A DNA stretch of 41,871 nucleotides from Gammaproteobacteria bacterium (GTDB lineage: Bacteria > Pseudomonadota > Gammaproteobacteria > GCA-001735895), in assembly GCA_029862005.1 (NCBI GenBank), contig JAOTYD010000028.1, positions 1 to 41,871 of the forward strand. Direction: 5' to 3'. Below the pieces are notes generated by a model, which ran no database searches, was not told the DNA's origin, and saw nothing but the letters and a program-made list of their open reading frames with translations. A program made the position numbers and the translations under genes. Below are positions 7,582 through 21,107 of this stretch, one piece after another. The stretch's first letter is position 1; each line of letters opens with the position of its first letter.

Positions 7582-8568
7582 ATGTTAAAAACACAACACA
7601 CTCTCAGGAAAGTGGTCTGTGCGCTGGGCGTCAGTGCCATTCTCGCGGGTATGCCGGTTCTCGGACATGCCTGGGAACCGCAGAAACCGGTTGAATTCGT
7701 CGTCATGGCGGGTAAAGGCGGTGGTGCGGACAAGGCGGTCAGGCTGCTGCAAAGTATTATTGCATCGGAAAATATGGCGCCGGTACCGTTTACCCCCGTC
7801 AACAAGCCGGGTGGATCGGGTGCAGAAGCCCTGGTTCATCTAAACGGTAAGAAAGGTGACAACCACACCATCATGTTTACCCTGAACAGCTTTTACACCA
7901 CACCTCTGCGTCAGCCGGGACTTGGCGTCGATATCTCGACTTTTACGCCGATTGCGCGCATGGCCGAAGATACCTTTCTGCTGTGGGTCCATTCCGACCG
8001 TGACGATATCAAGGATGTTGCTGATTTTGTCAGGGCGGCCAGGAGCAAGGGTAGCGACTGGATTATGGCCGGAACCGGCAAGAACTCGGAAGACAACCTG
8101 TTAACCGATTTCCTCAACACTGCCTACGACCTGAACATGAAATACGTCCCTTACAAGGGTGGCGGCAAGGTCGCGAAGGAACTGGCAGGAAAGAACGCCG
8201 ATTCGACCGTGAATAATCCTTCCGAGCAGCTGGGCTTCTACGAAGCCGGTACCACCAAGGCGCTGGCGGCATTCACCGATGATCGTTTACCGCTGTTCCC
8301 GAATGCACCCACCTTCAAGGAAATGGGCTACGACATGGTTTACTACATGCAGCGTACCGTGGTTGGCGCGCCCGGCATGAGCAAGGAAGCGGCGGACTAC
8401 TACCGTGATCTTTTTACCAGGGTGTTCAATTCAGCGAAATGGCAGGAATACCGCACCAAGAAGAGCCTGCAGGGTGACCTGCTAACCGGTGATGCGCTGA
8501 TGGCCTACTGGAAGAGGGAACGGGACGTGCACGAAGCCATGCTAAAGAAAATGGGCGCTATCAAGTAG
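7582..8568 (+). CDS. tctC: Tripartite tricarboxylate transporter substrate-binding protein (TctC family)
   Basis: This is the periplasmic receptor of a TTT-type carboxylate importer. ATG 7582 is preceded by GAGGAG (7569-7574, seven bases spacing), so the longer frame from TTG 7567 is rejected; the protein has 328 residues. It begins with a signal peptide (positive start, hydrophobic core CALGVSAILAGMPVLG, cleavage probably after GHA). The mature part starts WEPQKPVEFVVMAGKGGGADKAVRLLQ, the family's first ligand-binding loop, and continues with NKPGGSGAEAL, YVPYKGGGKVAKELAG and VNNPSEQLGFYEAG. Genes for both membrane subunits follow. The substrate is a carboxylate, perhaps oxalate or a 2-hydroxy acid judging by the enzymes downstream, but the binding pocket cannot be read here. 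Confidence 0.9.
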   Translation: MLKTQHTLRKVVCALGVSAILAGMPVLGHAWEPQKPVEFVVMAGKGGGADKAVRLLQSIIASENMAPVPFTPVNKPGGSGAEALVHLNGKKGDNHTIMFTLNSFYTTPLRQPGLGVDISTFTPIARMAEDTFLLWVHSDRDDIKDVADFVRAARSKGSDWIMAGTGKNSEDNLLTDFLNTAYDLNMKYVPYKGGGKVAKELAGKNADSTVNNPSEQLGFYEAGTTKALAAFTDDRLPLFPNAPTFKEMGYDMVYYMQRTVVGAPGMSKEAADYYRDLFTRVFNSAKWQEYRTKKSLQGDLLTGDALMAYWKRERDVHEAMLKKMGAIK

Positions 8569-9153: not shown

Positions 9154-10683
9154 ATGTTAGAAATTCTAGGACTACTGGCGCAAGGTTTTGTCATCGTTTT
9201 TGAACCGCAAAACCTGTTGCTGATAATCGCCGGCTGTGCGCTCGGGCTGTTTATCGGCGCGATGCCGGGGCTCGGTTCGGTCAACGGTGTTGCTATACTT
9301 TTACCGCTGACTTTCCTGGTGCCGCCAACCGGTGCGATTATTTTCCTGGCCGCGATTTACTACGGGGCCATGTACGGCGGCGCAATTTCATCGATCATGC
9401 TCGGAATTCCCGGCGCCTCGACCGCGGTCGCGACCACCTTCGACGGCCGCCCGCTGGCGAAACAGGGCCTGGCGGACAAGGCCCTGATCGGTGCCGCAGT
9501 CGCCTCCTTTGTCGGCGGTTCGATCTCCGTCGTGTTATTTACTTTTTTCGCACCGCCGCTGGCCCACGTTGCGCTGGTGTTCGGTGCCCCCGAAGAGTTC
9601 GCGCTGATGATGCTTGCGTTTGCAACCTTTGTTGGCCTGGGTGGCGATGATATTTTCAAGACCCTGTTTTCGATTTGCATCGGCCTGGTATTAAGCGCAG
9701 TTGGATTCGATATCATCTCCGGCGAACCGCGCCTGGTATTGTGGGATATCACCGGCTTCCTGCACGGGGTCAATTTCCTGGTGCTCGCGATCGGTATTTA
9801 CGGCATCGGCGAGATGCTGTGGACGGTCGAAGAACACGCGCTCGGCGGTGGCAAGAGCATGCTGTCGGAAGCGACCGTATCGGTGAAGCGGACCGTTTCA
9901 GCGCTGAGAGAACTGGTTGTAACCTGGAAATCAACCGTGATGGGTTCGTTCCTGGGGTATTTTGTCGGCATCCTGCCGGCCGCCGGCGCCACCCCCGGTT
10001 CGCTGATGGCTTACGGCATCGCCAAGCAGATTTCGAAAGAGCCGGAAAAATTCGGCGAGGGTGCAATCGAAGGCGTTTGCGCGCCGGAAGCCGCCAACAA
10101 CGCGGCCAGTACCGGTTCAATGCTGCCGATGCTGACGCTCGGAATCCCGGGCTCGCCGACCACCGCAATACTGCTCGGCGGCATGGTTATCTGGGGTCTG
10201 GAGCCCGGCCCGCGTCTGTTTGTCGATCACAGCGAGTTCGTTTGGGGGCTGATCGCGTCGCTCTATGCCGCCAACCTGTTTACGCTGCTGATCAACATCG
10301 CCTTTATCCCGGTGTTCATCAAGGTGCTGAAAACCCCGTTTACGATCCTGGCGCCGATCATTTTTACGCTGTGCCTGATCGGTGGCTATGCGCCGACCCA
10401 GGACATGCACGACGTCTGGTTGATGATCGTGTTCGGTATCGTCGGTTACCTGATGCGTAAGCTCGATTATCCGCTCGCGCCCGCGGTGCTGGCGATCGTA
10501 CTGGGACCCCTGGCGGAACCCGCGCTGCGCCAGTCGCTGATTATCAGCGAGGGCTCGTTCATGATTTTCTTCGAACGGGTCTACGCCGGCCCGATCATGG
10601 TTGTCGCGCTGATCCTGTTGTTTCTGCCGTTGTTCAAGAAAGCCTACGTTAGGATCCGTAAGCCTCGGGCGGCAGCGGAATAG
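9154..10683 (+). CDS. tctA: Tripartite tricarboxylate transporter large membrane subunit (TctA family)
   Basis: This 509-residue polytopic inner-membrane permease has about 11-12 hydrophobic segments. The conserved TctA blocks are clear: GLFIGAMPGLGSVNGVAILLPLTF, with the glycine-rich loop, then YYGAMYGGAISSIMLGIPG with ASTAVATTFDGRPLAKQG, the second internal repeat FVGILPAAGATPGSLMAYG, and PEAANNAASTGSMLPMLTLGIPGSPTTAILLGG. The two repeated GIPG motifs reflect the inverted internal duplication of the family. Uptake is ion-coupled and depends on the TctC receptor encoded upstream. The gntR-type gene follows 41 bases after the stop. Confidence 0.94.
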   Translation: MLEILGLLAQGFVIVFEPQNLLLIIAGCALGLFIGAMPGLGSVNGVAILLPLTFLVPPTGAIIFLAAIYYGAMYGGAISSIMLGIPGASTAVATTFDGRPLAKQGLADKALIGAAVASFVGGSISVVLFTFFAPPLAHVALVFGAPEEFALMMLAFATFVGLGGDDIFKTLFSICIGLVLSAVGFDIISGEPRLVLWDITGFLHGVNFLVLAIGIYGIGEMLWTVEEHALGGGKSMLSEATVSVKRTVSALRELVVTWKSTVMGSFLGYFVGILPAAGATPGSLMAYGIAKQISKEPEKFGEGAIEGVCAPEAANNAASTGSMLPMLTLGIPGSPTTAILLGGMVIWGLEPGPRLFVDHSEFVWGLIASLYAANLFTLLINIAFIPVFIKVLKTPFTILAPIIFTLCLIGGYAPTQDMHDVWLMIVFGIVGYLMRKLDYPLAPAVLAIVLGPLAEPALRQSLIISEGSFMIFFERVYAGPIMVVALILLFLPLFKKAYVRIRKPRAAAE

Positions 10684-10724
10684 GTGGTCCGGATCATGTT
10701 AAGCGCAATCAACAGGGCCTCACG

Positions 10725-11408
10725 ATGAGCTTAAGTGGCATTGTTCCGCTCGAGCCATCCAGGGGGCTCAAGACCCGGGTCTACGAGGCGCTGCGTGAAT
10801 TGATCGGGCACATGGATATTTACTCCAGCAAGGATCCGATCCGATTAGACGAGCGCGCCCTCGGCGAACAGCTGGGCGTAAGCCGCACACCGGTGCGCGA
10901 GGCAATCTCGCGGCTCGAACAGGAAGGTATCGTCGAAAACATAGCGCGTCGCGGTGCCTTCGTGGTGCGCAAGAGCAAGCGTGAAATACTCGATATCGTC
11001 GAAGTCTGGGCCGCGCTCGAAAGCATGGCCGCTCGCCTGGCAAGCAGTCGTGCCAGCGATGATGAGATTTCGCAATTGCGCAAGAATTTCGCTTCTTTTG
11101 ACGGTGAAGAGGCGCGCGCGCACATCGATGAGTACTCGGATACCAACATCGAGTTTCATCAGACCATTATCAGGCTGGGCCATTCCGAGTTGATCACGCA
11201 GATGGCAGACCAGCTGTTTTTTCACATGCGCGCGATTCGCGCGAGCACCATCAAGGATCGCGACCGTGTAGCCCAGTCAATTATGGATCACACTCGCATT
11301 ATCGAGGCGATCGAAGAACGGGACGCCTACCATGCCGAGCAGCTGGTCAGGGACCATGCGCTCGAACTGGCGAAACATATTGAACGCTATGTCGATTACC
11401 TGGATTAA
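10725..11408 (+). CDS. GntR-family transcriptional regulator, FadR/FCD subfamily
   Basis: The 227-residue protein has an N-terminal winged helix (about residues 13-80, with LDERALGEQLGVSRTPVREAISRLEQEGIVE, the classic GntR recognition region, and RRGAFVV wing). It is followed by an all-helical FCD ligand-binding domain (about 90-222) with Asp/His residues in DTNIEFHQTIIRLGH, DHTRIIEAI and VRDHALELA that usually bind a metal and an organic acid. It is encoded between the transporter and the CoA enzymes, so it most likely senses the imported acid or a product. TGGTATA-type palindromes before sucC and tctC are its likely targets. It lies within the operon it would control, implying autoregulation. 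Confidence 0.9.
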   Translation: MSLSGIVPLEPSRGLKTRVYEALRELIGHMDIYSSKDPIRLDERALGEQLGVSRTPVREAISRLEQEGIVENIARRGAFVVRKSKREILDIVEVWAALESMAARLASSRASDDEISQLRKNFASFDGEEARAHIDEYSDTNIEFHQTIIRLGHSELITQMADQLFFHMRAIRASTIKDRDRVAQSIMDHTRIIEAIEERDAYHAEQLVRDHALELAKHIERYVDYLD

Positions 11409-11419
11409 CGAATTTTATC

Positions 11420-11438
11420 GAGCCACCAAGCTTGGCTC
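11420..11438 (+). other. Hairpin in the gntR-lyase gap
   Basis: GAGCCA (11420-11425) and TGGCTC (11433-11438) form a perfect six-base stem around seven bases, beginning 11 bases after the regulator's stop. No T tract follows, so it is not a standard terminator. It could moderate read-through or mRNA stability between regulator and enzyme genes; it could also be chance. Confidence 0.3.
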
Positions 11439-11509
11439 CAGGTAACAAACCACGGCCTGGTCACAATGATTTTCGAACCGGCTAATTAAATCAAACGAGG
11501 TAGAGAGAA

Positions 11510-13264
11510 ATGTCAACAGTAGCTGAAAAACCACCGGTATCGGATACCGCCACGGATACCCTGAAGGTAAAAACCAAGGATGGATCGGTTATATCCGGTG
11601 GTCACCTGGTCGCCAAGGCCCTGAAGGCCGAGGGCGTCGACACCATATTCACGCTGTGCGGCGGACATATCATCGATATTTACGATGGCTGCCTGGACGA
11701 GGGTATACGCATTGTTGACGTGCGCCATGAGCAAACCGCCGCGCACGCCGCTGATGGTTATGCGCGCCAGACCGGCAAGCTCGGCTGTGTCGTTACCACC
11801 GCCGGGCCGGGTTGCACCAATGCAGTTACCGGTGTTGCCACCGCGTTTCGCTCGGAAAGCCCGATTCTGCACATCGGTGGGCAAAGTTCTTTAAGCCAGC
11901 ACAAGATGGGCTCGCTGCAGGATCTGCCGCACGTCGACATGATGACGCCGATCACCAAGTTTGCTTCGGGAGTATTCTCAACCGAGCGCGTTGCCGACAT
12001 GGTATCGATGGCGGCACGCGAATGTTTCAACGGCGCCTATGGTCCATCCTACCTCGAAATTCCGCGAGATATCCTGGACCGTGAAATTCCAATCGAGTCA
12101 GCCGTTATCCCCGAACCCGGTTCATACCGGGCATCGGTCAAATCGATCGGCGATCCGGCCGATATTGAAAAGCTCGCGGATATCCTGGTCAAGGCCAAAC
12201 GTCCGGCGGTGCTGCTCGGGCAGCAGGTCTGGGCATCGCAAGGGCAAGAGGCCGCGATCAGTTTCGTGCGCTCGCTCGATATTCCAGCCTACATGAATGG
12301 CGCCAGCCGGGGTATGCTGCCGCAGGGCGATCCGCATCACTTCGATCGCACCCGCAGCGATGCATTTAAAGAGGCCGACGTTATCTTGATCGTCGGTACG
12401 CCTTTCGACTTCCGCATGGGCTACGGCAAGCGTATATCCAGCGCGGCGACGCTGGTGCAAATCGATCAGAGCTATGCCACCGTCGGCAAGAATCGTGACA
12501 TCAGCCTTGGATTAGCCGGCGATCCCGGTTCGATCCTGGCTGCCGTGGAGCAGGCTGCCTCCGGTCGCATCGACGATGGTGCCAAACAGGAGCGCCAGAA
12601 ATGGATGGCCCGGTTGCGTGATATCGAGGCCACCAAGCTGGAAAAACTGATGCCGATGTTTACCACCGATCAAAGCCCCATTCACCCTTATCGTCTTGCC
12701 TACGAGATCAATGAGTTCCTCGGCAAAGATACGATTTACATCGGTGATGGCGGTGACATCGTGACCATTTCCGCACAGGCGGTGCGCCCGCGCAATCCAG
12801 GGCAGTGGATGGATCCGGGTGCGCTGGGATCGCTGGGTGTCGGCACCGGCTTCTCGATGGCGGCCAAGCTCGCGCATCCGAACAAGGAAGTTGTCTGTCT
12901 CTACGGCGATGGCGCTTTCGGCATGACCTCCTTTGACATGGAGACCGCACAACGCTTTGGCGCACCTTACCTCGCCGTGATCGGCAATAACTCGGCAATG
13001 AACCAGATTCGTTACGGGCAACTCGCCAAGTACGGCCAGGACCGCGGCGACGTCGGTAACAAGCTCGGCGATGTACCGTTTTCAAAGTTCGGTGAAATGA
13101 TCGGCGGTTATGGTGAAGAAGTACACGAAGCCAAAGATATCCAGCCCGCGATGCAGCGCGCGCGTGAAGCGATTGCCAAAACCGGTAAATGCGCGGTCGT
13201 AAATGTCTGGGTTGACCCGAATGAATACGCGCCGGGTACCAAGGCGCAAACCATGTACAAGTAA
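11510..13264 (+). CDS. Thiamine-diphosphate lyase, 2-hydroxyacyl-CoA lyase / oxalyl-CoA decarboxylase-like
   Basis: This 584-residue enzyme has the three-domain acetolactate-synthase fold. The activating Glu is E74 in VRHEQTAAHAADGYAR. The cofactor/Mg motif is GDG at 466-468 with NN at 493-494. The middle domain contains VGTPFDFRMGYG. Compared with what I remember of E. coli and Oxalobacter-type oxalyl-CoA decarboxylase, the N-terminal signature (GIPVTDM) and the C-terminal ESGHI...LNP region are absent. The CGGHIIDIYDG start and the end VDPNEYAPGTKAQTMYK resemble bacterial 2-hydroxyacyl-CoA lyases, which cleave 2-hydroxyacyl-CoA to formyl-CoA and an aldehyde or ketone. The next gene is frc, so the product is very probably formyl-CoA. 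The substrate could be oxalyl-CoA or a 2-hydroxyacyl-CoA. Acetolactate-synthase-like activity is the weaker alternative. Confidence 0.75.
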   Translation: MSTVAEKPPVSDTATDTLKVKTKDGSVISGGHLVAKALKAEGVDTIFTLCGGHIIDIYDGCLDEGIRIVDVRHEQTAAHAADGYARQTGKLGCVVTTAGPGCTNAVTGVATAFRSESPILHIGGQSSLSQHKMGSLQDLPHVDMMTPITKFASGVFSTERVADMVSMAARECFNGAYGPSYLEIPRDILDREIPIESAVIPEPGSYRASVKSIGDPADIEKLADILVKAKRPAVLLGQQVWASQGQEAAISFVRSLDIPAYMNGASRGMLPQGDPHHFDRTRSDAFKEADVILIVGTPFDFRMGYGKRISSAATLVQIDQSYATVGKNRDISLGLAGDPGSILAAVEQAASGRIDDGAKQERQKWMARLRDIEATKLEKLMPMFTTDQSPIHPYRLAYEINEFLGKDTIYIGDGGDIVTISAQAVRPRNPGQWMDPGALGSLGVGTGFSMAAKLAHPNKEVVCLYGDGAFGMTSFDMETAQRFGAPYLAVIGNNSAMNQIRYGQLAKYGQDRGDVGNKLGDVPFSKFGEMIGGYGEEVHEAKDIQPAMQRAREAIAKTGKCAVVNVWVDPNEYAPGTKAQTMYK

Positions 13265-13304
13265 CAGATTTCAGAAACAATCGAACGTTTATCAGAGGTA
13301 AGTA

Positions 13305-14555
13305 ATGTCGAAGGCTCTAGACCATATAAAAATCCTGGATTTCACCCACGTCCAGTCTGGCCCCACTTGTACCCAGCTGCTCGCGTGGATGGGTGCCGAC
13401 GTGATCAAGGTGGAACGCCCCGGTGTCGGTGATGCAACCCGCAAGCAACTGGTTGACGTGGAGGGTTCAGACAGTCTCTATTTCACGATGCTGAATCACA
13501 ACAAGCGTTCGCTGACGCTGAACTCCAAGACGGAAAGCGGCAAAGAGGTACTGGAGCGGCTGGTCAAGACCTGCGACGTGCTGGTGGAAAATTTTGCCCC
13601 CGGCGCGCTCGATCGCATGGGTTTCAGCTGGGAGCGTATCCAGGAACTGAACCCGCGCATGATCATGGCGTCGGTGAAAGGATTCGGACCCGGACCATAC
13701 GAAGACTGCAAGGTTTATGAAAACGTCGCGCAGTGTGCGGGTGGCTCAGCCTCGACGACCGGTTTCCGCGACGGTCTGCCGCTGGTAACCGGCGCTCAGA
13801 TCGGCGACTCGGGAACCGGACTGCACCTGGCATTCGGTATTTGCGCCGCGCTACTCCATCGTGAAAAAACCGGGCGCGGACAGCGCGTGCTGGCGCCGAT
13901 GCAGGACGGCGTATTGAACCTGTGCCGGGTCAAGTTGCGCGACCAGCAGCGTCTCAAGGCCGGGCCGCTCAAGGAATACTCGCAATACGGTGAAGGTATT
14001 CCGTTTGGCGAAGCCACACCGCGTGCCGGTAACGATTCCGGAGGCGGTCAGCCGGGCCGCATCCTCAAATGCAAGGGCTGGGAAACCGATCCCGATGCGT
14101 ACACCTACTTCATCACCCAGGCGGCGGTATGGCAGAAAATCTGCGACGTGATCGGCAAACCCGAATGGAAGGAGCACCCGGACTACGCCACCCCACCGGC
14201 GCGCTTGCCTCATCTGAATGAAGTTTTCGGTGCCATCGAGGAGTGGACCATGACCAAGACCAAGTATGAAGTCATGGAAATCTGCAACCCGCTGGATATC
14301 CCGGTAGGGCCGATCCTGTCGATGAAAGAATTGGCCGAGGAACCGTCGTTGCGTGAAACCGGCACTATCGTCGAGGTCGACCATCCCGAGCGTGGGCCCT
14401 ACCTGTCGGTGGGCTGCCCGGTCAAATTGTCAGACAACGATGTTGTCGTCGAACGCTCACCGCTACTCGGAGAACATTCGGACGAGATTCTGAGCGAGGT
14501 GCTCGGCTACAGCGCGGATGAAATCGCCGCTTTAAGAGAAGCAGGCGCCGTTTAA
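13305..14555 (+). CDS. frc: Formyl-CoA:oxalate CoA-transferase (class III CoA-transferase)
   Basis: Frc moves CoA from formyl-CoA to oxalate, giving oxalyl-CoA and formate. The 416 residues follow E. coli Frc/YfdW closely along the whole length as I recall it: [34 protein letters not shown], the nearly identical block [15 protein letters not shown] with [14 protein letters not shown], the glycine loop GGGQPG and [11 protein letters not shown]. The catalytic Asp that forms the acyl-anhydride is D168 in IGDSGTG. A close paralogue acting on a different 2-hydroxy acid is possible, because the preceding lyase is not a typical oxalyl-CoA decarboxylase. It lies 40 bases after the lyase gene, in the same operon. 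Confidence 0.88.
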
Positions 14556-14604
14556 GCAAAGTGCCCGGCGCGATCACTGCCGCGCCAGCACAAAGGAGAG
14601 AGAA

Positions 14605-15519
14605 ATGAGATTAATCGTTCATGGCCAGCAGGCGTATGGCAAGTCTGTACTCGAAGCCATCCTGGACAAGGGGGTGGACGAGGTGGTTGCAGTTTACAGT
14701 GCGCCCGACAAGGAGGGCAGGCCGCTGGATCCGCTGAAGGAATACGCACTGGAGCAGGAATTACCCGTTTACCAGCCTGAATCCTACCGAAATCCCGAGA
14801 TCTGGGAGCAGCTGGCAAGTCACGAAGCAGATTTGTGCGTGATGGCCTACGTCCTGTTGTTCGTGCCTGAAGAGGCGCTTAACGTGCCGAAATACGGATC
14901 GATCCAGTACCATCCATCATTGCTGCCCTGGCACAAGGGGCCGAGCTCGATCAACTGGCCGATCATCATGGGCAAGGAAAAAACCGGCCTGTCGATCTTC
15001 TGGCCGGACAATGGCCTCGATACCGGGCCGATAATGCTGCAAAAGGAAGTCGATATCGGGCCCGACGATACGCTGGGATCGATTTACTTCGACAAGCTGT
15101 ACCCGCTTGGCGTTGACGCCATGCTCGAGTCAATCGAACTGGTTCGTGGCGGCAATGCGCCGCGCGAGGTTCAGGATCCCGACGCAGGCAGCTACGAAGG
15201 CTGGTGCCGCAAGGAAGACGTCCACATCGACTGGAGCAAGGGCACGGATGAAGTTTATAACCTGATTCGCGGGGCCAATCCGCAGCCAGGCGCCTGGACC
15301 ACTTTTAACGGCAGCGAGCTCAAGATTTTTGACAGCCGCAAAGCTGACGGCAGTGGTGAACCGGGCAGCGTACTCTCGATCGACGATGGCGGTGCCGTGG
15401 TGGCGACCGCGGACGGCGCCATTCGCGTTATGAAAGTTCGCGCCGATGCAGGCAAGGTGCCGGTGCCGGAATACGCGGCATCTGCAGGTCTCGAAACGGG
15501 CTCGAAACTGGGCAGCTGA
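14605..15519 (+). CDS. Formyltransferase, 10-formyltetrahydrofolate hydrolase-domain family
   Basis: The 304 residues have an N-terminal formyl-transferase Rossmann domain (1-about 185) and a C-terminal Fmt-like domain (about 205-290). It resembles the N-terminal hydrolase domain of 10-formyl-THF dehydrogenase (ALDH1L) more than methionyl-tRNA formyltransferase: YHPSLLPWHKGPSSINWPI has catalytic-type H103, and IFWPDNGLDTGPIMLQKE has D139 at the family Asp position, while the Asn of tRNA formyltransferases is replaced by Y102. Its likely role is handling one-carbon formyl units, releasing formate from 10-formyl-THF or possibly from formyl-CoA. The relic of formate-THF ligase just downstream supports a folate link. 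A GGAGAGAG ribosome site precedes ATG 14605. Confidence 0.82.
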   Translation: MRLIVHGQQAYGKSVLEAILDKGVDEVVAVYSAPDKEGRPLDPLKEYALEQELPVYQPESYRNPEIWEQLASHEADLCVMAYVLLFVPEEALNVPKYGSIQYHPSLLPWHKGPSSINWPIIMGKEKTGLSIFWPDNGLDTGPIMLQKEVDIGPDDTLGSIYFDKLYPLGVDAMLESIELVRGGNAPREVQDPDAGSYEGWCRKEDVHIDWSKGTDEVYNLIRGANPQPGAWTTFNGSELKIFDSRKADGSGEPGSVLSIDDGGAVVATADGAIRVMKVRADAGKVPVPEYAASAGLETGSKLGS

Positions 15520-15549
15520 AGTCCGTGCGCTTGCCGTAAAAATACATGA

Positions 15550-15567
15550 AGACCGGTGTACCGGTCT
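15550..15567. other. Perfect 8-bp inverted repeat before the fhs relic
   Basis: AGACCGGT (15550-15557) and ACCGGTCT (15560-15567) flank a two-base centre, 13 bases before the start codon of the fhs relic and directly upstream of its GAGG ribosome site. It could be a protein-binding site or a cruciform-like remnant. It has no T tract, so it is unlikely to terminate transcription. Confidence 0.35.
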
Positions 15568-15579
15568 GAGGATAGAAGC

Positions 15580-15660
15580 ATGAGTGACATCGAAATTGCG
15601 CGCGCGGCCGCGGACAAGATTCATATCAATGACGGTGGCCTGATTCAGGGTCTATTCTAA
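15580..15660 (+). pseudogene. fhs: Relic of formate-tetrahydrofolate ligase: both ends joined, core deleted
   Basis: This is a 26-codon frame with its own GAGG ribosome site. Its first residues, MSDIEIARAA, match the conserved N-terminus of formate-THF ligase (Fhs, about 555 residues). Its last residues, ADKIHINDGGLIQGLF, match the Fhs C-terminus, which as I recall usually reads PAAEKID...G-I-GLF. The simplest reading is one in-frame deletion of about 530 codons, with the junction in the GC-rich GCGCGGCCGCG stretch near 15602-15612. That is the kind of site where short repeats recombine. Fhs makes 10-formyl-THF from formate, which fits the formyltransferase before it and the formate dehydrogenase after it. 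A genuine small peptide is unlikely; an assembly collapse must be excluded. Confidence 0.65.
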
Positions 15661-16653: not shown

Positions 16654-18366
16654 ATGTCACAGCCTGAGCCCAATTCCGACCCGGTTGACAATCGCAAGCA
16701 GCGCCGCCGCGGCAAGACTAAGGGCAGGGTGGTTGATCTTAACGCGCTGCTCGAAGTGCAGAGCCTACTGGGTGACGAATCACGTGCGCGCGACCTGTTG
16801 ATCGAACACCTGCACAAGATTCAGGACAACTACGGGCATTTGTCAGCCGCACACCTGGTAGCACTGGCCCACGAAATGCGCCTCGCCACCACCGAGGTCT
16901 ACGAAGTAGCAAGCTTTTACCATCATTTTGATGTGATTCGGGAAGGCGATATTGCGCCACCGTCCTTAACCGTGCGCGTCTGCGATTCGGTCAGCTGCGA
17001 AATGGCCGGTAGCGAATCCCTGATCGCCGCACTTGAATCCTCACTAGGTGACGGTGTGCGCGTGCAGCGCGTTCCCTGTGTTGGCCGTTGTGACAAGGCG
17101 CCGGTCGCGGTGGTCGGTCAGTACACGGTCGACAATGCAACCGATGACGCGGTTAAATCCGCCGTCGACGCCGGCAATACCACCCAATCCATGCCGGATG
17201 ACAGCATCGATTTCGATGCCTATCGGGCGAGTGGCGGTTACCAGTTGTTTGACAGGTTGCTCGGCGGCGACATCAGCGGTGACACAATTATCGAGGCGCT
17301 CGAGGGCACGCAATTGCGGGGTCTCGGTGGTGCCGGCTTTCCGGTTGGGCGCAAGTGGGGGATCCTGCGCGATCAACCCGCGCCGCGCCTGTGCGCGATC
17401 AATATCGACGAGGGTGAGCCGGGGACCTTTAAAGACCGCTTCTATATGCTCTCCGATCCACACCGCTTTCTCGAGGGCATGCTGATTGCAGCCAGGGTTA
17501 TCGGAATCAACGCCTGCTATATTTATATCCGCGACGAATATCCATCGGTCATTCAGATCCTCAAACTTGCGGTCGATGACCTGGTTAAAAAATCCGGCTA
17601 CGAACTGCCATTGATAGAAATACGGCGTGGCGCGGGTGCCTACATCTGCGGTGAAGAATCGGCGATGATCGAGTCGATCGAAGGCAAGCGCGGCATGCCG
17701 CGATTACGTCCGCCTTACGTTGCCGAGGTGGGACTTTTCGGTCGGCCGACGCTCGAGCACAACTGTGAATCGCTGTTCTGGATTCGCGACATAATCGAGA
17801 AGGGTTCCGAATGGTTCGATTCGCAGGGCCGCAACGGACGCAAGGGCGTGCGCAGTTTCTCGGTCTCGGGTCGCGTAAACAAACCCGGCGTGCACCTCGC
17901 GCCAGCAGGCATAACGATCAAGGAACTGATCGATGAATACTGTGGCGGCATGCTCGATGGGCACCAGTTCTATGGTTATTTCCCGGGCGGTGCCTCGGGT
18001 GGCATTTTGCCGGCCAGCCTGAACGATATTCCGCTCGATTTCGATACGCTGCAGGAATATGGTTGCTTTATCGGTTCCGCCGCGGTCGTGGTGTTGTCGG
18101 ACCAGGACAGCGCCAAGCAGGCGGCGCTGAACTCGCTCAAGTTTTTCGCGCACGAATCCTGCGGCCAGTGTACGCCTTGTCGGGTTGGTTGCGAAAAAGC
18201 GGTCAGCATCATGGAAACCGGCAACTGGGATATCGAGCAGCTGAACGATCTGTCGACGGTGATGGTCGATGCCTCGATCTGTGGTCTCGGGCAGGCGGCA
18301 CCCAATCCCATACTGTCAGTCATAAAATATTTCCCGCATGAGCTGGGAATCGAGGAGAATCCATAA
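16654..18366 (+). CDS. fdhB: NAD-dependent formate dehydrogenase beta subunit, NuoE-NuoF fusion
   Basis: This diaphorase subunit passes electrons from the alpha subunit to NAD+. It has 570 residues. The N-terminal thioredoxin-like NuoE part (about 30-165) has a 2Fe-2S site at C110, C115, C142 and C146. The NuoF part (about 190-560) has FMN/NADH loops RGLGGAGFPVGRKW and INIDEGEPGTFKDR, then GAGAYICGEESAMIESIEGKRG, and near the end the 4Fe-4S cluster motif SCGQCTPCRVGC. The same fused layout occurs in the two-subunit NAD-linked formate dehydrogenase (FDH1) of Methylobacterium, where it works with a tungsten or molybdenum alpha subunit. Its stop overlaps the start region of the alpha gene (18366), indicating coupled translation. 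Confidence 0.93.
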   Translation: MSQPEPNSDPVDNRKQRRRGKTKGRVVDLNALLEVQSLLGDESRARDLLIEHLHKIQDNYGHLSAAHLVALAHEMRLATTEVYEVASFYHHFDVIREGDIAPPSLTVRVCDSVSCEMAGSESLIAALESSLGDGVRVQRVPCVGRCDKAPVAVVGQYTVDNATDDAVKSAVDAGNTTQSMPDDSIDFDAYRASGGYQLFDRLLGGDISGDTIIEALEGTQLRGLGGAGFPVGRKWGILRDQPAPRLCAINIDEGEPGTFKDRFYMLSDPHRFLEGMLIAARVIGINACYIYIRDEYPSVIQILKLAVDDLVKKSGYELPLIEIRRGAGAYICGEESAMIESIEGKRGMPRLRPPYVAEVGLFGRPTLEHNCESLFWIRDIIEKGSEWFDSQGRNGRKGVRSFSVSGRVNKPGVHLAPAGITIKELIDEYCGGMLDGHQFYGYFPGGASGGILPASLNDIPLDFDTLQEYGCFIGSAAVVVLSDQDSAKQAALNSLKFFAHESCGQCTPCRVGCEKAVSIMETGNWDIEQLNDLSTVMVDASICGLGQAAPNPILSVIKYFPHELGIEENP

Positions 18367-21107
18367 TGGCTGCCAATCCTGATTCTATCTTTGAGGCCAT
18401 CGAATTCACTTTAAACGGGGCTTCGGTAGAAGGCCTGCCGGGTGAAACCATCCTGCAGGCAGCACAACGCACCGGCACCGAGATTCCGCATCTTTGCTAC
18501 ACCGATGGATTGCGCGCCGACGGTAACTGCCGCGCCTGCATGGTCGAGATCGATGGCGAACGCGTGCTTGCGCCGAGCTGTTGCCGCAATCCAACCCCGG
18601 GGATGGTGGTTCATTCAGATAACGAACGCGCGCAAAAATCGCAGAAGCTCGTACTCGAACTGCTGCTTTCCGATATGCCCGAGCAGTCGTATACGCTTGA
18701 AAACGAGCTGACTTACTGGGCCGACAAGCTCGAAGTCACGAATCCGAGATTCAAGCCGCGCCATCAACCGGCCGCGGATTTGTCGCATCCGGCGATCGCA
18801 GTCAACCTGGATGCCTGTATCCAGTGCACACGCTGCCTGCGCGCCTGCCGCGAGTCTCAAGTCAATGACGTGATCGGCCTGGCACGGCGCGGGCATTATG
18901 CAGAGATCGTGTTCGATATCGGTGACCCGATGGGTGAGTCTTCTTGTGTGGCCTGCGGCGAATGCGTTGCCGCCTGTCCCACCGGCGCGCTCAGCAATGC
19001 GAATGGGGCGCACCTGATCGAGGCTGACCGTAAAGTCGACTCGGTTTGCCCTTACTGCGGGGTCGGGTGCCTGCTGACGTATCACGTTAAAGACGACGAA
19101 ATTGTGCGTGTCGAAGGACGTGACGGACCAGCCAATTTCAACCGTCTGTGTGTCAAGGGACGTTATGGTTTCGACTATATCAATCATCCGCAGCGTTTAC
19201 TCAAACCGTTAATTCGCAAGGAAGGCGTGCCCAAGGGTTTGAACGAATATTTCGATCCGGCTGATCCGTCGAAGATGTTTCGTGAAGTCAGCTGGGATGA
19301 GGCCATGCAACTTGCGACGAGCGGACTGAAGCAAATCAAAAATGAACATGGTGGCGCCGGGCTGGCCGGCTTCGGCTCGGCCAAGGGTTCAAACGAAGAA
19401 GCCTACCTGTTCCAGAAACTGGTACGCGTCGGTTTCGGCACCAATAACGTCGATCACTGTACCCGGCTGTGCCATGCATCCAGTGTCGCGGCACTGCTCG
19501 AAGGTATCGGTTCCGGCGCGGTCTCAAACCAGGTCGAGGACGTCAAGCATGCCGAGGTGTTCATGGTTATCGGCTCCAATCCGACGACCAATCATCCGGT
19601 TGCCGCGACCTTTATGAAGAATGCCATCCGGGACGGCAAGAAATTAATTCTGCTGGATCCGCGCAAGACCCAGATTGCGCGTCACGCGACCCACCATCTG
19701 CAGTTCAACGCTTCGACCGATGTGTCGCTGCTGAACTCGATGCTGCACGTCATCATCGAGGAAGGGCTCACCGACGAATCTTTCATCAAGGAGCGCACCA
19801 CCGACTACGAGGAACTGAAGGCCAACGTCGCCGATTTCAGCCCCGAGAAAATGGCGCCGGTAACCGGAATCGACGCCACGACACTGCGCGAAGTTGCGCG
19901 CCTGTTTGCAACTTCGAAAGGGTCGATGATTTTCTGGGGGATGGGAATTTCGCAACATATCCATGGTACCGACAATTCGCGTTGCCTGATCGCGTTGTCG
20001 ATGATTACCGGACAAATCGGTCGCCCCGGTACCGGCTTACACCCGCTGCGTGGGCAGAACAATGTGCAGGGTGCTTCCGATGCCGGGCTGATACCGATGG
20101 TTTTTCCCGACTACCAGCGTGTTGACAATGCTGAAGCGCATGCCTGGTTTTCGAAATACTGGAATGCCGAGCTCGACGATAAGCCCGGTTTGACCGTGGT
20201 TGAAATCATGCACGCGGTGCTCGAGGGACAGATCAAGGGCATGTACATCATGGGTGAAAACCCGGCGATGTCAGACCCGAACCTGAACCATGCACGTGCC
20301 GCGCTGGCGGCGCTCGATCATCTTGTCCTGCAGGACATGTTTCTGACCGAAACCGCGGCCTTCGCCGACGTGGTGTTACCGGCGTCGGGCTGGGCCGAGA
20401 AAGATGGCACGGTATCGAATACCGACCGCCGCGTACAACTCGGCCAGGCCGCAGTGCCACTGCCGGGTGAAGCACGCCAGGATCTCTGGATCATTCGCGA
20501 TATCGGCAAGGGGATTGGTCTCGACTGGGACTATAGCCATGTGTCAGAGGTCTACGACGAAATGCGCGGCGCGATGGCGAGCATCACTGGAATTACCTGG
20601 GAGCGCCTGAACGAATCATCCTCCGTTACTTATCCCTGTGCCGACGAAAGCGATCCTGGCCAGGGTGTTGTTTTCGTTGAGGACTTCCCCACCGCCAACG
20701 GTAAGGCGAGGCTGGTAGCGGCAAAATCGATTCCGCCGGATGAGCTGCCCGATGAAGAGTTTCCGCTTATTCTGATCACCGGGCGACAGCTCGAGCACTG
20801 GCATACCGGTTCGATGACGCGCCGTGCAGCAATACTCGATGCAATCGAACCGGTGCCGGTGGTTTATGTCAATGGACAGGATCTTGAAAGCCTCGGCGTC
20901 GAAGCGGGTGCCGAAATCATTGCCAGGTCACGCCGCGGTGAATTGCGAGCCTACGCGCGGCCCGACGGGGCGCTTAAACAGGGCGAGGTATTTATTCCGT
21001 TCTGTTTTCACGAGGCGGCAGCAAACCTGTTGACCAACGAGGCGCTCGATCCGTACGGCAAAATTCCCGAGTTCAAGTTCTGCGCGATCAAGCTGGAGGC
21101 AGCTTAG
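18366..21107 (+). CDS. fdhA: Formate dehydrogenase alpha subunit, molybdenum/tungsten-bis-MGD
   Basis: This subunit oxidises formate to CO2. It has 913 residues. An N-terminal ferredoxin-like 2Fe-2S domain has C44, C55, C58 and C72 or C73. Two 4Fe-4S motifs follow (C151/154/157/161 and C194/197/200/204), and then the molybdopterin domain with its own cluster (C228, C231, C235, C262). The residue that ligates the metal is C369 in DHCTRLCHASSV, at the position of selenocysteine in E. coli FdhF, so this is a Cys-type enzyme. The C-terminal molybdopterin-dinucleotide domain is present (ILITGRQLEHWHTGSMTRR). The frame starts in the beta-subunit stop region. FdhD and cofactor genes are not in the window. 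Its place in the operon fits disposal of formate made from formyl-CoA. Confidence 0.94.
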   Translation: MAANPDSIFEAIEFTLNGASVEGLPGETILQAAQRTGTEIPHLCYTDGLRADGNCRACMVEIDGERVLAPSCCRNPTPGMVVHSDNERAQKSQKLVLELLLSDMPEQSYTLENELTYWADKLEVTNPRFKPRHQPAADLSHPAIAVNLDACIQCTRCLRACRESQVNDVIGLARRGHYAEIVFDIGDPMGESSCVACGECVAACPTGALSNANGAHLIEADRKVDSVCPYCGVGCLLTYHVKDDEIVRVEGRDGPANFNRLCVKGRYGFDYINHPQRLLKPLIRKEGVPKGLNEYFDPADPSKMFREVSWDEAMQLATSGLKQIKNEHGGAGLAGFGSAKGSNEEAYLFQKLVRVGFGTNNVDHCTRLCHASSVAALLEGIGSGAVSNQVEDVKHAEVFMVIGSNPTTNHPVAATFMKNAIRDGKKLILLDPRKTQIARHATHHLQFNASTDVSLLNSMLHVIIEEGLTDESFIKERTTDYEELKANVADFSPEKMAPVTGIDATTLREVARLFATSKGSMIFWGMGISQHIHGTDNSRCLIALSMITGQIGRPGTGLHPLRGQNNVQGASDAGLIPMVFPDYQRVDNAEAHAWFSKYWNAELDDKPGLTVVEIMHAVLEGQIKGMYIMGENPAMSDPNLNHARAALAALDHLVLQDMFLTETAAFADVVLPASGWAEKDGTVSNTDRRVQLGQAAVPLPGEARQDLWIIRDIGKGIGLDWDYSHVSEVYDEMRGAMASITGITWERLNESSSVTYPCADESDPGQGVVFVEDFPTANGKARLVAAKSIPPDELPDEEFPLILITGRQLEHWHTGSMTRRAAILDAIEPVPVVYVNGQDLESLGVEAGAEIIARSRRGELRAYARPDGALKQGEVFIPFCFHEAAANLLTNEALDPYGKIPEFKFCAIKLEAA

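Follow-up and report, generated by a model that had tools for sequence, protein, structure and literature searches.

In the 2-hydroxyisobutyryl-CoA lyase pathway of Actinobacteria, as its published account describes it, a ThDP-dependent lyase releases formyl-CoA, and the formate may then be oxidised by an NAD-dependent formate dehydrogenase (PMC7176365). The operon analysed here resembles this scheme in having a ThDP-dependent enzyme together with a formate dehydrogenase. In related genomes it also carries fhs, and at the same place in the window (the whole analysed stretch of 41,871 nucleotides, belonging to genome G000) only a reading frame of 26 codons is found. Judged from sequence comparison, this stub is an in-frame deletion derivative of an operon fhs that was once complete. 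Titles and abstract openings in the literature search held nothing evidently on this loss of fhs, which is not to claim that it is unpublished.

Results

Operon around the fhs remnant

The gene order is GntR regulator, ThDP enzyme, formyl-CoA transferase, formyltransferase, stub, usp, NuoE/NuoF-like subunit and formate dehydrogenase alpha subunit (Table 1). Among the best 25 of 52 families, the ThDP enzyme scores highest with acetolactate synthase PRK05858 (457 bits against a cut-off of 587), followed by 2-hydroxyacyl-CoA lyase (HACL, 358 of 600) and TIGR03254 oxalate_oxc (212 of 739). The last score is so far under its cut-off that the name oxalyl-CoA decarboxylase was rejected. The formyltransferase beside the stub had been described as intact, and it is complete with both of its domains; it scores below the NCBIfam fmt cut-off (151 versus 201 bits). 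Its position suggests that the NuoE/NuoF-like subunit serves the formate dehydrogenase as its diaphorase.

Table 1. Features of the fhs remnant and the surrounding operon in the window
Feature	Position	Strand	Remarks
GntR/FCD-family regulator	10725..11408	+	upstream of cluster
ThDP-dependent enzyme	11510..13264	+	below cut-off of every NCBIfam model among best 25 of 52
Formyl-CoA transferase (frc)	13305..14555	+	TIGR03253 694.8 bits, cut-off 504.2
Formyltransferase, 304 aa, intact	14605..15519	+	Formyl_trans_N and Formyl_trans_C
fhs remnant, 26 codons	15580..15660	+	N-terminal 10 codons fused in frame to C-terminal 16, then stop
Deletion junction region, GCG-CGC-GCG-GCC-GCG-GAC	15598..15613	+	exact break ambiguous
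usp (universal stress protein family), 286 aa	15678..16538	+	directly 3' of remnant
NuoE/NuoF-like fused subunit	16654..18366	+	
Formate dehydrogenase alpha subunit	18366..21107	+	TIGR01591 735.8 bits, cut-off 666

The GntR regulator occurs in two types. The first is 86-97% identical to that of the window (G020, G002, G013, G026, G005, G029 and G006) and the second is 60-65% identical (G003, G016, G023, G028 and G030). The usp gene of G020 contains a run of unknown bases (X; L032 about 7855-7975), which is a scaffold gap or masked sequence. Formyltransferase relatives of 43-64% identity (L104-L112 and L114-L117) lie in Alphaproteobacteria and Dehalococcoidia bins, apart from L109, which is a same-genus operon. 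None of the other operon genes sought was found at those loci above the identity and length floors that define a match in the tblastn operon gene tables, except at L106, where a formyl-CoA transferase (71%) is accompanied by a partial GntR gene.

Structure and origin of the stub

The stub starts with ATG at 15580, immediately preceded by a GAGGA motif, and stops with TAA at 15658-15660, encoding the peptide MSDIEIARAAADKIHINDGGLIQGLF. The ribosome site, start, frame and stop that the initial annotation had listed as retained are thus all found. The stub begins 60 bp past the formyltransferase stop and ends 17 bp before usp, and one Ala codon at the join can be assigned to either fhs end. In the eight same-genus intact operon copies, the Fhs start is identical to residues 2-10 of the stub (9/9), and the C-terminus agrees with its last 16 residues at 13-15 positions, which confirms the two Fhs signatures first recognised in the peptide. 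The more distant operon copy of the outgroup L103 matches at 8/9 and 8/16, and eight C19-type paralogues (named after the contig carrying the second fhs of G000) match at 8/9 and 8-11/16. Since the operon copies match both ends better, an origin of the stub from the C19 paralogue was ruled out. When residues 9-26 were used as query, operon fhs genes were recovered with E-values down to 1.7e-5 (G020); these values and the end matches rule out a chance resemblance to Fhs.

Compared with the eight intact genes of 1668 bp, 1587 bp are absent in frame, so that the early estimate of about 530 lost codons comes to 529. No Pfam or NCBIfam family matched the 26-aa protein; the Fhs model spans about 556 positions. 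The P-loop, PTPAGEGKTTT in the eight intact relatives (L003-L005 and L007-L011), is absent. With the entire catalytic core gone, P-loop included, the stub makes no Fhs.

The junction is as rich in GCGGCC as had been noted. The DNA similarity block on the 5' side extends to 15608-15613 in seven relatives, and the block on the 3' side begins at 15598-15607 in ten pieces that carry an fhs 3' end. The break was placed within 15598-15613 because the blocks shared with intact relatives end and resume there; the 5' block of G026, G005 and G003 ends sooner, at 15468-15479. Measured against eight proxy parents, the true parent of G000 being lost, the best-fitting break can fall anywhere within at most 6 neighbouring positions in G000 and at most 10 in G013, a second genome with an in-frame deletion. 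On these alignments, any homology at the breakpoints would be short.

Upstream of the stub, the window is unusually close to G020. Each 100-base bin of 13001-15300 is 94-100% identical, and the block 10033-15613 is 97% identical overall, compared with about 78-91% in longer shared blocks elsewhere among the matches listed. The tract 10033-15300 looks like a recent homologous exchange with its right edge inside the formyltransferase gene, to judge by this identity profile; on the left, the tract is truncated by the contig end of G020. The deletion does not mark the edge of the tract, whose right end near 15300 lies some 280 bp before the stub.

Operon fhs in the genus

Forty-one genomes were searched for the formyltransferase, giving 28 match rows, from which 16 close operons were counted (76-100% identity, some of them truncated at a contig end). 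Seven genomes with a distant formyltransferase (56-60%; G008, G011, G012, G015, G017, G019 and G024) were not counted, and five rows at 33-34% identity were left out. Above the same identity and length floors, no fhs was found in the fetched stretches of those seven, among which the G019 contig ends about 190 bases past the formyltransferase. The wider search for formyltransferase loci, which returned L103, was run without a C19-type fhs query.

The operon fhs is intact in eight of the 16 operons, split in one and lost in six; in G022 the contig ends inside the formyltransferase. A full fhs between formyltransferase and usp was expected in relatives, and this is what eight same-genus genomes contain. 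The nearest relative G020 has a complete gene of 555 aa, and syntenic intact copies are present in G026, G005, G023, G014, G003, G016 and G018. An intact fhs also lies at the same place in the more distant L103 (formyltransferase 68% identical). The split gene of G028 is divided between two contig ends, with C320 carrying residues 1-98 and C484 the last 23.

The six losses, in G000, G013, G002, G006, G029 and G030, differ in structure. G013 has an in-frame fusion of 105 aa from which 450 codons are gone, with TPTPAG joined to AGFLVF and the P-loop cut. In G002, G029 and G006, the spacers between formyltransferase and usp hold decayed pieces, whose best alignment is to the last 68 bases of fhs. 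In a crude control that permuted blocks of two bases, none of 300 shuffles aligned as well as the remnant in any of the three (score versus best shuffle: 33 versus 29 for G002, 45 versus 28 for G029 and 39 versus 36 for G006, the last a narrow margin). The 32-bp spacer of G030 shows no trace of fhs, with 134/300 shuffles as good. No frame runs from fhs start to fhs stop in G002, G029 and G006, and four of the six losses (all but G000 and G013) retained no frame. G029 matches the 1.9-Mb scaffold DS021198.1 of the Olavius algarvensis Gamma 3 endosymbiont; the other titled same-genus loci are Gammaproteobacteria metagenome bins.

A conserved 26-residue peptide without fhs in relatives had been named as the pattern that would speak against a deletion, and it was not seen among 95 genomes. 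The stub peptide gave a match at E<=1 in 25 of them, and the peptide itself is present only in G000. The other matches are fhs C-termini, apart from a weak pair lying in other frames (G009, 45% across residues 3-24, E 0.35; G004, 53% across residues 7-23, E 0.35). The stub is therefore not a conserved small protein family in these 95 genomes.

Number of losses

A tree of all six operon proteins places the losers among intact relatives. G000 groups with the intact G020 and G029 with the intact G023, both at a support of 100, and G013 groups with the intact G026 and G005 at 77; support at the remaining nodes is 38-100. Trees of half operons agree only partly. The support for the upstream and downstream halves is 99 and 90 for G000 with G020, and 54 and 97 for G029 with G023; G013 groups with G026 and G005 at 57 upstream, and this grouping is not recovered downstream. 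Taken at face value and assuming no regain, the combined tree implies that fhs was lost six separate times. Since part of the operon is nearly identical to that of G020, which points to homologous exchange, a regain of fhs is conceivable. A minimum of two or three independent losses is supported by the two groupings at 100 together with the differing structures. By these comparisons, the same operon copy is repeatedly lost within the genus, with different end points.

A second fhs and the fate of formate

Another fhs had been suggested for searching, and an intact one of 557 aa is located at G000:C19:52672-54336. It is full length without stops, scores 914 bits with PRK13505 (cut-off 652) and is the only PF01268 match of a profile search in G000. 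A full-length fhs outside the operon is present in all six losers, and a full-length second fhs in seven of the nine genomes with an intact or split operon copy. The second fhs of G026 is cut short and matches the family model over positions 1-489 only; in G014 the operon copy is the only detected fhs, so the operon copy is not always redundant. The intact operon copies show dN/dS of 0.013-0.047 in four pairs, and this purifying selection indicates that the gene is useful where it is kept.

The C19 fhs adjoins genes for a type III glutamine synthetase and glutamate-synthase-like proteins, a neighbourhood (G000:C19:45685-54336; L119, L042) that is possibly a methylated-amine cluster. With such neighbours, the C19 Fhs may serve another C1 route, and in this different setting the gene may be expressed under other conditions than the operon.

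The deletion had been proposed to uncouple formate from the folate C1 pool, and the intact C19 copy in the same genome speaks against this. The related proposal of an operon that only oxidises formate holds locally, where the formate dehydrogenase is the sole annotated consumer of formate, and fails genome-wide, where the folate route remains. With a second complete fhs elsewhere in the genome, the operon copy appears dispensable, redundancy being the likely cause, and its loss was probably harmless.

Age and reading frame of the deletion

The stub differs from G020 by three synonymous and one non-synonymous codon over 25, and with so few differences it appears recent. Against the eight intact genes it has 1-3 non-synonymous codons, compared with 0-2 in nine intact pairs; over 103 codons, 8-16 non-synonymous differences were counted for the G013 remnant and 10-17 for intact pairs. 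Both in-frame deletions, being without clear decay, are recent or artefactual.

The spacing of exact repeats at least 600 bp apart in the eight intact fhs genes is divisible by three in 51.9% (k=4), 56.4% (k=5), 62.5% (k=6), 69.2% (k=7), 73.3% (k=8), 79% (k=9) and 86% (k=10) of pairs rather than in 33%, although these pairs are not independent, as the genes are related and longer repeats are recounted at shorter k. The excess presumably arises because GC-rich codons repeat in register. As 52-73% of repeat pairs of 4-8 bases are already in frame, the in-frame join is weak evidence of selection, and two in-frame deletions, in G000 and G013, are unremarkable.

Discussion

The ends and frame of the stub, the intact syntenic parents, the other losses and the second copy can be read directly from the sequences. 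They make it very probable that the stub arose by a recent short-homology deletion of a dispensable fhs paralogue. A complete operon fhs would have stood at the locus before the event. A deletion of about 1587 bp would then have fused two GC-rich alanine-coding stretches, RAA and AADK, probably through short homology, with the reading frame kept by chance. Redundancy with the second fhs may have allowed the loss. Two outlets would then remain for formate released by the operon, namely local oxidation by the formate dehydrogenase and attachment to folate by the other Fhs.

The main rival is an artefact of assembly or of a mixed population, in which most cells carry a full fhs and a rare deleted path was assembled or the region collapsed. 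The G000 genome is one draft of 105 contigs, 26 of the 27 titled relatives are metagenome bins, contigs break at fhs in several bins (G028, G012, G006, G008 and G007), and the absence of clear decay in either in-frame deletion also fits. However, the ambiguity of a few bases at the junction, estimated from proxy parents, is probably too short for k-mer collapse, and the fhs interior was not found elsewhere in the G000 bin, where PF01268 finds only the C19 copy. PF01268 likewise finds only the C698 copy and two ends on C182 in the G013 bin. Because three other genomes hold decayed remnants, one of them on the 1.9-Mb endosymbiont scaffold, loss at this site is argued to be real in the genus. An artefact at the stub itself is thus unlikely.

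A bolder reading than the recent deletion of a dispensable copy is that the repeated loss is adaptive: the folate branch would be shed, formate derived from formyl-CoA would be burned for NADH, the fhs 3' end would act as a cis signal for usp and formate dehydrogenase, and the stub would be a selected translated spacer. We consider this combination rather improbable. Least credible of all is a selected minigene, whose 26-codon translation couples formyltransferase to usp or whose fhs 3' end bears a signal for usp: the ribosome site, start, frame and stop are all retained and an fhs 3' piece persists beside usp in five of the six losses, but G030 has only its short spacer and no remnant, G002, G029 and G006 keep no start-to-stop frame, comparable repeat pairs are in frame more often than not even in the absence of selection, and only G000 among 95 genomes has the peptide.

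One gene in one operon of one genus forms a graded natural series, which begins with the intact gene, passes over the in-frame stub and the decayed scraps and finishes with clean loss, and provides an example of a redundant one-carbon gene shed with its neighbours left intact. It is also a caution that selection should not be read from an in-frame junction alone when the gene is GC-rich.

Compared with Fhs (PF01268 / PRK13505), the stub shares both ends with the same-genus operon proteins, whereas 529 of 555 codons are gone and no Pfam or NCBIfam match is left. Bacterial pseudogenes formed by deletion between short direct repeats, as generally known, are alike in the ambiguous GC-rich junction, the redundancy with a paralogue and the existence of further-decayed lineages; the present case differs in that frame, start and stop were kept twice (G000 and G013), with different end points. 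Unlike the 2-hydroxyisobutyryl-CoA lyase system, the ThDP enzyme of the window reaches no lyase cut-off among the best 25 of 52 families, and whereas the words 'tetrahydrofolate' and 'formyltransferase' do not occur in the main text of PMC7176365, the operon of the relatives combines fhs with a formyltransferase.
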